Of a DNA stretch of 64,000 bases, positions 51,988 through 56,749 are shown piece by piece; position 1 is the stretch's first letter; every line of letters begins with the position of its first letter. The position numbers were made by a program, and so were the translations under genes. Under the pieces are notes generated by a model. It was not told the DNA's origin, searched no databases, and saw only the letters and a program-made list of their open reading frames with translations. The DNA is from Orbaceae bacterium ESL0727 (GTDB lineage Bacteria > Pseudomonadota > Gammaproteobacteria > Enterobacterales > Orbaceae), in contig JAQTHY010000001.1 in NCBI GenBank assembly GCA_029433345.1, forward strand, positions 682,001 through 746,000, in the 5' to 3' direction.

Positions 51988-52724
51988 TTGTCTTGCTGTT
52001 TACGCGGAGGATAGTTGTCTATTGCGTCACCTATCAAAGTTATCTTCCCATTGCGCTTTTTATGCCGTCACATGGTGTTGACGAGGTAAAAAGCGTTTAT
52101 TGGGTTTTGTTTAACGATCGTCGGCAGCATTGCCTATCCTGATCAGCTGTTTTTGGTTCAAGCGCTGCGACTAAAATGGCATGGCACCACTTCTTTTCAG
52201 CACAACTCTTTATTTCAATACTTTCTATTTCAATCAACAGGTTGGTGTGAGTTGTGCACAACAGGTCATTCCCTTTTGGTAAAAACGCGTTGTTTCGATT
52301 GCTTGGCTCAATCGCGGGAACCGTCATATCAACGGCAAGCATGCTTTACGTTTCTTCACATTACGTCAGATTTTTACAAAAATGGTGGCGTTATTTTGAT
52401 ATAAATCACATTATAAAGTATTAATCTATGATTAAACTGGGTATGATAGTCAAAACGGAAAGTTGTTTTTTTATCTTTTAATAGAGACAATTAAACTGTT
52501 ATTTTGATAAAATATGATTTTTTTAAAATAAATTATTCATTGATAACCGCTAGTTAAAGGATTTTGTTTTAAAAAATATAATAAAATAATAAAAAATTTG
52601 AAATTATAATGGAATAACTGAGAATTTATAATGAAAATTCAAATCAATAATACTAACTAAAATTCTTTTATAGTGGCTTTATTATGCAATTTCAAACTTA
52701 TTTGCGTTTTAATTATTTGTTGTT
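51988..52724. other. Long gap before the first decayed paralogue
   Basis: 737 bp. Overlapping short frames at 52097-52342 (minus) and 52153-52404 (plus) resemble nothing known and are probably chance. From about 52340 onward the sequence is similar to the stretch at 54680-55020 before the second paralogue (shared CAAGCATG, TGATTAAAC, GTATGATA-like pieces), so the duplicated unit includes its 5' flank. Confidence 0.5.
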
Positions 52725-54189
52725 ATGCGTATTTCATCGTTTATATCGCCTTTTTTATCGGTTGCGGCAATCGTTATCTTGTTATTAACGATGAGCTGTG
52801 CGTTTAATGCCAATGCACTGTCGGCTATCACCGTGAATACCATGCAAGGGACGCCTCCTTATCTCACTTTTGATGGCGGCCAAACCAAAGCCACTAATTT
52901 TGATCAGTTACTATCGATCACACTATCAAATGGTGTGAGTTATAGTTTAACCAATAATCCGTCTTCGGCGGCTAATCCAATTGTGCTGCCGGCAGCAGGG
53001 CAAACGCTGGCTGATATCCAGATGGTGGTGCCGTCTAATCAAGATGGCATCACATTACAAAACGTCATTGCTGCACCCCATAATTATTGGGGGGATGATA
53101 ATGGTGATGGGCAAGGGGTAAATGGCATAACCGCCACTGGGACTATCATGGTAAAGTTGTATGACGCAAATAATGCCTTGCTGAGTCGCAATACTGCATT
53201 AAATCGGTGTGATTCCTCTTATTATCGCGTGGTGTTGAGTAGTCCCGCAGGAGTATTATCGACCAAATATGGTTACCCCCGAACCAGCAATTTTACTGCG
53301 TCAAGTGTCACCTATTATATTAGACCGTACACTGAGCGGCCCCCAGTCCTGTTACGTTCAACCTAATTTAGATTTTCAGAGTTATAGTTCAATAAGTATG
53401 GTTAATTTAGTTAATCAATGGCGTAAAGATAAAGGTTTTATTCTACAAGATATTGACAATCCGTCAGTTAACTTCCCGACCACGGGGATGAATAACGCCT
53501 TTTTTAATCTCACCTTAGTCGATATGACTGCGAGCGATATCAGCTATGAGGCTACGCCTGCTAATTCGGGGCTGCATCTTTCTATTAGTGGATCGGGTAA
53601 TGTGGCGAAAGTGATGTTGACCGGCCCTAAATCAGGCGCAACGGCTGCTGAAGCGGCGACCGCGGTGCCGACCACCTTTACCTTATACACGAATGATAAT
53701 GGCAGAAGAATGAAACTTTATAGTTTTAAGGTGAACCAATGGTTTATTGCCAGCGCCGACGAAAAAGCGATCTCGAGCAGCGATATTAATCGCAATTACG
53801 ATGAAAATTATTGTAATCGTTACGGCACGGGTTATCGTATTCCCCATATTGCTGAACTGACTAATGCCAATGGGACGAACTATGGTTGGTTTTGGGCTGG
53901 TAGCTTAGGGAGTCGAGGAACTATCTTCGCGACACGGCAAATTGGTGGTGGTCTATTTTCGGAGTGGGGAAATCTGTCAGTAGAATCACGTGATTATTAC
54001 CCTAATACTGATTTTCCTCACACGCCGTTACCTTCAGCCGGTCGTTTAGTGTAGGCGAAAGAGCGTCTTTATAAGGATACGTCGACACAAATCGATCATC
54101 CGGCTGAAATCCACACGTCGACAGGATGGATTACCACGGCAGCTAATTTGCCAGGCGGGTATGTGTCGTATATCTGCGTCACCCCGTAA
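52725..54189 (+). pseudogene. Decayed secreted protein, paralogue A
   Basis: A signal peptide (about 1-32, ending NANALSA) is followed by a domain with a calcium-loop-like DDNGDGQG. A conserved C-terminal domain begins at CNRYGTGYRIPHIAELTNAN and ends SYICVTP. The frame is broken twice. One extra C in a C-run (53340-53344) shifts the frame after IRPYTERP; removing it restores QSCYVQPNL. Then a TAG (54052-54054) stands where paralogue B has TGG (Trp). After both repairs the frame continues to TAA 54187-54189. The C-terminal Cys/RxPxxxEL/Trp pattern recalls lectin-like end domains of Gram-negative surface adhesins, which is only a suggestion. Function unknown. Confidence 0.8.
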
Positions 54190-54221
54190 TTGCGTTACAT
54201 GATTGAATAAATAATTATTGG

Positions 54222-54311
54222 GTGAACAGTTAGTCAGTCAATAAGTGTTCGGTAAACAGCTATTTAGTAAGCACTGACTTAGTAAACAGTTACTCAGTAA
54301 ACAAACATTCA
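54222..54311 (+). repeat. Degenerate 15-bp tandem repeat, six units
   Basis: Units of the type GTAAACAGTTACTCA, for example GTGAACAGTTAGTCA, GTAAACAGCTATTTA, GTAAGCACTGACTTA and GTAAACAAACATTCA. The region after paralogue B (about 56540-56582) has only two or three related units, so copy number has changed since duplication. Confidence 0.75.
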
Positions 54312-54316
54312 ATACA

Positions 54317-54353
54317 CAATAGTGGCTAACTAAACAGTTAGCCACTATTGTTT
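54317..54353 (+). terminator. Strong hairpin terminator after paralogue A
   Basis: A perfect 15-bp stem (CAATAGTGGCTAACT and its complement) with an AAAC loop, followed by TTT. The same structure with a few changes follows paralogue B. Confidence 0.75.
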
Positions 54354-54432
54354 GCTATGCATGTTAGCCATTATTTTTGCCTTTCATCTTTTAATAAAAG
54401 TTAGTTTTACCCCAAAATAGCAAATTATTGAG

Positions 54433-54468
54433 TTGGATGTTTCAGAACTATACTACGTTTATGTCAAA
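54433..54468 (-). repeat. 36-bp interspersed repeat, copy 3
   Basis: Differs from copy 1 mainly by ACGTAG for ACATAG. The preceding 80 bp or so are the same as before copy 4, so copies 3 and 4 were duplicated with the gene. Confidence 0.85.
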
Positions 54469-54628
54469 TATTTTAAAAATACCAAAATACCAAAATAGCT
54501 ATGACAATAACGCTCAATCGATCTTCACATCTTTATTCATGATACCAGTCATTATTTCTTGGTGAATTCGCCGAGTTTAGCTAACCTGGCAAAGGGTGTA
54601 CCTATATCTTTTTGCGTTAGGCATACTG

Positions 54629-54665
54629 TCTATATCTATATCTATATCTATATCTATATCTATAT
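54629..54665 (+). repeat. Hexanucleotide tandem repeat (TATATC)
   Basis: Five perfect TATATC units plus partial ones on both ends, 37 bp in all. It lies about 360 bp upstream of paralogue B and has no counterpart before paralogue A. Confidence 0.9.
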
Positions 54666-55022
54666 TGCGCCAATTGCGGTAACAGTTATGCCAAGCATGA
54701 ATGTGCTTTACCTTCCTTGACAGAAATAACGTGGTTATTTTCACATAAATTATATTATAAAGTACTATTCCACGATTAAACGAGATATGATAACCAACTT
54801 TAAAAGTTGTTTTTACTTTTGTTTTGTAACGATTAAGCTGTAATGCTAATGATTATTCGATTTTTTTAAAGCAAGTTAATGATAAATAATTGTTAATTAG
54901 ATAGATTTATTTTTATATAAATAAAAAATAATAAAAAATTGAGATTATTAAGGAATAAATTAAATGCATAACAAAAAGTCCAATCCGAAATTCAAACTAA
55001 AATTTTCTAAGGTGACTTTATT

Positions 55023-56494
55023 ATGCAGATTTCAACATATTTATGTTTTTATTCTTTGCTGTTATGCGTATTCTATCGTTTATTTCGTCTTTTTTTATCG
55101 GTCGTGGCAATAGTTATCGTGCCATTAACGGTGAGCTATGCGTTTAATGCTCATGCGCTGTCAGCCACCACGGCGAATGCCATCGAAGGGACGCCCCCTT
55201 ATCTCACCTTTGATGGTGGGGTAACCAAAGTGACCAATATTGATCAGTTACTCTCGATCACGCTATCGAATGGTGTGAATTATAGCCTAACGCATAATCC
55301 GTCTTCGGCGACTAATCCAATTGTGTTGCCCGTCGCTGGGCAGACGCTGGCTGATGTACAGATGGTGGTTCCGACTAATGTGGATAGCATTGCGCTCAAT
55401 AGCTTAATTGCTGCGCCTTATAACTATTGGCGTGATGATAATGGTGATGGGTAAGGCGCAAACGGCATAACCGCCACGGACACAGTCAGCCTACGTATCT
55501 ATGATTCCAATAATACTTTGCTTAATCGCAATGCGACATTAAATCTGTGTAATTCCCCTTATTATCGCGTGGTGCTGAGTAGTACAGCAGGGGAATTGTC
55601 GACCCAATATGGTTACCCCCGTACCAGCAATTTTACCGCGTCGAGTGCCACCTATTATATCAAACCGTACATTGATAACCCTTATGTCTGTTATGCACAA
55701 CCTAACTTAGCGTTGTCTACACCCGGTGTTGCTAATCAATGGAATAAAACAAAAGGCTTTATTGTACAAAATATTGACAATCCTATCGCTAACTTCCCAA
55801 CCACGGGAGTGAATAACGTCTTTTTTAATCTCACCTTAGTTGGTGCGACCGTGAGCGATGTGACTTACGAAGCGGAACCAGCCAGTTCGGGGTTGCATTT
55901 GGCCATTACTGGGAGTGGCAATGTGGCAAAAGTGACCTTAACTGGCCCGAAATCGGGGGCAACGCCTGCCGAAGCAGCGACCGCGGTGCCGACCACCTTT
56001 ACTTTATATGCCAATACCAATGGTAAAAAAACGAAGCTCTATAGTTTTACGTTGGGCAAATGGTTTATCGCCAGTCCCAATATAGAACATCAGACTAATT
56101 CTGGCGTCATCGTGGGTTATAATGCAACTTATTGTAATCGTTATGGCGCGAGCTATCGCTTTCCAACTATTGGTGAACTGACTAATGCTAATGGTGGTGT
56201 TCGGCCCAATAGTTGGACCTGGACAGGTAGTTTAGGAAGTCAAGGATCTCTGTACGATACCAGGCAAATTGGCGGTGGTTTGTTTGCAGAGTGGGGGATA
56301 TGTCAATGTACACTAATATTCATGATTATTACCCTAATACTGATTTTCCCCATCAGTTTGTGAGTGTTCTTGTATGGACCAATAACCGTATGAGTAATAA
56401 TTATGTTGCGCAAATTTCTAATTATAACGGCTATATTTCTACTGGAGATAAGACGAATAATGTTTATTTGTCACATATCTGTGTCACCCCTTAA
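55023..56494 (+). pseudogene. Decayed secreted protein, paralogue B
   Basis: Similar to paralogue A over the entire length, with the same domains. Three lesions are visible against A. A T-run in the signal peptide is seven long (55090-55096) where A has six; the frame is rescued only by starting upstream at ATG 55023 instead of the start equivalent to A (55064). A TAA at 55452-55454 replaces the Gln codon CAA in the DDNGDGQG loop. One G is missing in a G-run (56293-56297), shifting the frame after FAEWG; with it restored the protein runs on through DYYPNTDFPH to SHICVTP and TAA 56492-56494. The last in-frame piece could at most yield fragments. Function unknown. Confidence 0.8.
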
Positions 56495-56612: not shown

Positions 56613-56666
56613 GCCTTTCATCTTTTAATAAAAGTTAGTTTTACCCCAAAATAGCAAATTATTGAG

Positions 56667-56702
56667 TTGGATGTTTCAGAAGTATACTATGTTTATGTCA
56701 AA
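56667..56702 (-). repeat. 36-bp interspersed repeat, copy 4
   Basis: Nearly identical to copy 1 (ACATAGTATA kept, one base changed in AGTTCTGAAA to CTTCTGAAA). It lies between paralogue B and the YhiN gene. Confidence 0.85.
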
Positions 56703-56749
56703 TTTTTTATATCAAATTGTTAGCGTAAAGTTAAATACCTGTGCGACTA

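Follow-up and report, generated by a model that had tools for sequence, protein, structure and literature searches.

The two broken genes A and B are most probably decayed members of an Opa-like contingency family of secreted proteins, a family that would combine slipped-strand switching with recombination between copies. From the sequences compared here, this reading is given a probability of roughly three in four. A and B themselves are ordinary decayed copies, yet through them a family came to light in bee gut symbionts that is Opa-like, recombines and appears to be phase-variable. Both lie in the window, a stretch of 64,000 nucleotides (bases 682001-746000 of the larger, 2.0-Mb contig, C1) from a genome of 2.15 Mb in total. 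This genome is assigned to the same genus as the Gilliamella genomes with which it was compared, and Gilliamella belongs to the core gut symbionts of social bees.

Copy A (52725-54189, forward strand) has a signal-peptide-like start, an Ig-like middle and a C-terminal domain, and copy B follows on the same strand (55023-56494). The DNA identity between them, 75% over positions 1-1296 of A, identifies the two as paralogues. As originally predicted, they form a tandem pair of related genes, broken separately, each with its own nonsense codon and its own frameshift. In A, a one-base frame change near 53336-53350, in a C-run, is combined with an in-frame TAG at 54052-54054, and in B an in-frame TAA at 55452-55454 is combined with a frame change at a G-run near 56293-56297. 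The two copies thus have different lesions, and the reading frame of each is uninterrupted at the sites where the other is damaged. A further lesion ascribed to a T-run of B was not borne out, B being open from its ATG at 55023 through its T7 run.

Assembly error was considered as the source of these lesions. Of the rest of the window, 84% is covered by frames of 200 codons or more, among them frames of 763, 631 and 1494 codons. Because the remaining window consists of such long, intact frames, a poor assembly is unlikely and the lesions are probably real. The pair is flanked by two genes which, from their sequences, we take to be a MarC-like gene and an HI0933-like flavoprotein gene. An upstream ATG of A (52684-52724, forward strand) is out of frame with the body of A (T6) and is not followed by a 7/8-nt array, and a second ATG, at 52725, is in frame with the body. 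The array scan detected no 7- or 8-nt array at the start of A or of B. Between the two copies, a perfect hexanucleotide array, (TCTATA)6.2, occupies positions 54629-54665.

By sequence, A and B are decayed paralogues of a larger family and not an isolated pair. DNA and protein searches located about 25 family loci in the window's genome, with 11 full-length frames. An intact third copy, which the original prediction had proposed to look for in the rest of the genome and whose absence would have spoken against it, is present 280 kb away (C1:454.8-456.4k) and encodes 538 aa from its ATG. Other full-length frames include those at 318k, 354k, 124k, 1245k, 1283k and 865k of C1 and at 38k of C2, the 150-kb contig of this genome. 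The family also includes a 1556-aa protein (C1:1005k), in which the N-terminal domain is repeated.

Of the 44 Orbaceae genomes, 41 contain the family, at up to 52 matches each; none of the 113 genomes sampled from other families of the order contains it. On these searches, this paralogous family of predicted secreted proteins is Orbaceae-specific. A scan of the named genomes with a single protein gave no match; the alignment-based scan gave five loci. The state of the family differs between species. Full and partial frames number 37 and 0 in the Gilliamella genome G012, 29 and 2 in G006, and 20 and 2 in G016, against 11 and 25 in the window's genome, which indicates that the window's species is losing the family and its relatives are not. 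The suggestion of parallel decay is thus upheld, and it extends well beyond the pair.

Downstream of A (54405-54473) and of B (56639-56707), on the forward strand, lies the same module, common to other family copies. It holds a dispersed intergenic element of about 35-40 nt (GGATGTTTCAGAACTATACTACGTTTATGTCAAATTTTT), found here at 54437-54465 and 56671-56699. This element, the middle bases of which are variable, has 75 matches in the genome with up to three mismatches, on both strands (control 0).

Sequence comparison further indicates exchange between copies that lie far apart, whether or not they are intact. Over the tract 53674-54122 (forward strand, 449 nt), A differs from the intact copy at C1:454.8-456.4k only in the nonsense codon, and the flanks are 80-96% identical. 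The copies at C1:355k and C1:458k are identical over about 550 nt, and a runs test on polymorphic sites gave p=0.001 both here and for the pair of A and C1:454k. The identity save for the TAG implies that A and the intact copy exchanged sequence recently, and that the nonsense codon of A is younger than their last exchange. A and B had also been proposed as a reservoir from which a working gene could be rebuilt. The exchange visible between copies adds support to this idea, in which the rebuilding itself is a proposal. Several dispersed paralogues with segment exchange, as in an Opa-type family, are therefore present.

In many members of the family, a perfect 7- or 8-nt tandem array is placed directly after the ATG or within about 12 bases of it, before the signal peptide. 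The ATG is preceded by a Shine-Dalgarno-like sequence. Since the unit is 7 or 8 nt long, each unit gained or lost shifts the frame, and the length of the array sets the phase between the ATG and the body. At the family level, a non-triplet unit thus stands between start and body, the arrangement associated with slipped-strand switching. In Orbaceae bacterium ESL0721 (G029), 11 array genes with 7.4-23.1 units occur in all three phases, three in frame and eight out. In the window's genome, C1:355k (4.4 units) is in frame, as is C1:1386k (7.0 units), which is broken further on; C1:1151k (12.1 units) and the gene of the 1556-aa protein (8.4 units) are out of frame, and some arrays follow a lost start codon (c493k and p38k). 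Some members have no array and start in frame, and these may be expressed constantly.

The heptad genes of Gilliamella are strongly biased, 134 of 139 being out of frame and five in frame, although these OFF states are not independent because many arrays within a genome have near-identical 5' ends. Among six well-sampled genomes, exactly one in-frame gene each was found in G006 (of 19), G012 (of 35), G016 (of 15), G018 (of 7) and G020 (of 28), and none among the 30 heptad genes of G. apis NO3 (G017). Unit numbers are 4.4-4.6 in four of the five in-frame forms and mostly 3.3-3.9 in the silent ones. Near-identical leaders are found in an ON and an OFF form one unit apart (4.4 versus 3.4 in G018 and again in G012), and 2.4-, 3.4- and 4.4-unit forms all exist; one genome per species was compared, and these differences in copy number are between paralogues. 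There are 23 different heptad units, each perfectly repeated inside its own array, which fits repeated slippage. With about 3.4 units (24-25 nt), most of the Gilliamella arrays are short, and slippage in them is expected to be slow.

The arrays are concentrated at the starts of the family genes. The fetched DNA, about 845 kb, holds 157 distinct perfect 7-8-nt arrays of at least 3.3 units. Of these, 146 are no more than 260 nt away from the 5' end of a family frame, and the zone so defined covers roughly 124 kb. The regions had been picked around family genes, so that this is a local and not a genome-wide control.

Other arrays were observed as well. A related subfamily of about 520-655 aa (L145, L128 and L198; G018 and G017) has GCCA arrays of about 23-26 units after the start codon, and start and body are in frame in the G017 member and in one of those from G018. 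Two long 8-nt arrays, AAATAACC x13.6 (L015:4202-4310) and GTTATTTG x10.9 (L012:3556-3642), lie beside family copies, off their start codons. The 8-nt array TATTTATG, with about 11 units (L010:8889-8982, C1:324.9k), is not beside a family gene. It is located just past a small lipoprotein-like gene and is possibly another switch.

Translation probably starts at the ATG that precedes the array, because none of 76 Gilliamella array genes has an in-frame ATG within 40 codons past the array (GTG or TTG occurs in a few) and because the first codons of G020 vary synonymously (ATG CG(C/T) TA(T/C) CAT). A codon-position test of the leaders gave no clear third-position excess, which probably results from the gap-free comparison of fast-changing leaders. 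The ATG of array genes is straddled or overlapped by a near-consensus TTGACA-N16/18-TANAAT pair in G006, G012, G016, G017, G018 and G029, and several non-array members are without one half of this pair. Were TTGACA-N17-TATAAT a real promoter, the ATG would be untranscribed. This alternative is weakened by the -10-like part, which reads TATCAT or TACCAT in G020, and by the absence of a downstream ATG after the arrays.

Pfam and NCBIfam profiles gave nothing above the cut-off, and no family in them covers the protein. The same profiles gave no match to an outer-membrane barrel family, and an inverse-autotransporter barrel was matched neither in the members nor in the 1556-aa protein. The structural model of a relative (pLDDT 63) contains beta-sandwich domains, with generic Ig-fold matches at low TM-scores. 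An invariant Cys pair and an EWG motif mark the C-terminal domain, which also has weak Pfam matches to Intimin_C (2/41, best E 0.0016) and Lcl_C (5/41), and a weak similarity to invasin (1cwv) that a larger C-terminal profile did not recover. Together, these features point to a possible C-type-lectin-like fold; modelled separately, the domain reached a pLDDT of 36, a failed model. The secreted products are probably adhesins.

As an Opa-like contingency family, the system might operate as follows. Slipped-strand mispairing would change the length of the array and thereby turn each gene on or off at random, few copies would be made at any time, and the silent copies would form a sequence store. 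Copies also swap segments by homologous recombination. The product would be a variable surface adhesin or recognition protein in the insect gut, built of Ig-like domains with a possible C-type-lectin-like tip. In the window's species, the family is eroding, and A and B have independent lesions and no array.

It is unlikely that the broken copies, A and B among them, are only ordinary pseudogenes of a shrinking symbiont genome, and the arrays neutral microsatellites. The many partial frames of the window's genome would agree with such an origin, as would the array-less A and B and the lost start codons before the c493k and p38k arrays. However, neutral arrays would not cluster at the starts of the family genes, and the bodies are open despite an out-of-frame start: in G012, all 37 of 37 frames are full with 34 of 35 array genes OFF. 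That the bodies have stayed open behind such starts implies recurrent selection during in-frame phases. Translational control without switching, in which the Gilliamella arrays of about 3.4 units would be fixed and the protein made through ribosomal frameshifting or from a downstream start that escaped recognition, appears highly improbable. The unit sequences are very diverse and none is a recognised slippery site, the arrays of ESL0721 are long and found in all three phases, forms of 2.4, 3.4 and 4.4 units exist, and an in-frame ATG downstream is absent. These observations stand against the nearly uniform length class and phase of the arrays in six genomes and against the promoter-like pair straddling the ATG, both of which would suit a fixed arrangement.

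A stricter rule, under which exactly one array copy is kept in frame and the rest is a silent archive feeding it by recombination, is an improbable description of the family as well. It is favoured by the single in-frame heptad gene, among 7-35, in each of G006, G012, G016, G018 and G020; exactly one in at least five of six genomes has a chance of 0.017 at the pooled rate. The rule was drawn up post hoc, however, and at most one in all six genomes is not unusual at the same rate (0.25). Moreover, G. apis NO3 has no in-frame array gene and ESL0721 has three, and non-array genes are also in frame. Being post hoc, and with 5' ends shared within a genome, the exactly-one pattern is a lead only. 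A further doubtful proposal is a silent store in Gilliamella, with up to about 35 surface-protein genes in each genome and almost all of them one unit off, from which one array copy at a time would be expressed. This near-mutually-exclusive expression would be set only by the length of the heptanucleotide array and refreshed by recombination with the store.

If the Opa-like contingency family is real, a beneficial insect symbiont uses surface variation of a kind known from mucosal pathogens. This variation may be directed at the host, at phages or at rival strains. Through the pronounced bias towards OFF, which gonococcal opa has as well, a limit on how many copies are in frame could be tested in a harmless, culturable organism. 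In the open-access full texts that were searched, no paper was found that joins Gilliamella with such a phase-variable system.

Three known systems can be compared with this family. Intimin and invasin may share with it an arrangement of Ig-like domains and, behind them, a possible C-type-lectin-like tip, at weak scores, but the proteins described here are about 500 aa long, have their own signal peptide and show no inverse-autotransporter barrel. The repeats of hmw in Haemophilus influenzae sit in the promoter and tune transcription, whereas the arrays of this family come after the start codon and act on the frame. The likeness to the HMW adhesins lies in the 7-nt tandem repeats, which in HMW control a surface adhesin by heptanucleotide phase variation (PMC8262952, PMC2651432). 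Neisseria opa differs in its protein, which is unrelated to the one found here, where no outer-membrane barrel was detected, and in its 5-nt units, compared with units of 7 or 8 nt. Up to about 35 array genes per genome occur here, with Gilliamella arrays that are short and almost uniform in phase, and gonococcal opa has 9-12 loci, of which a mean of 1.7 are in frame versus 3.4 expected (PMC13183285). Both systems consist of dispersed paralogues that recombine with each other and whose frame depends on short non-triplet repeats in the 5' part of the coding region. In both, the in-frame copies are also fewer than the one third expected, the deficit of opa being weaker than that of the family described here.
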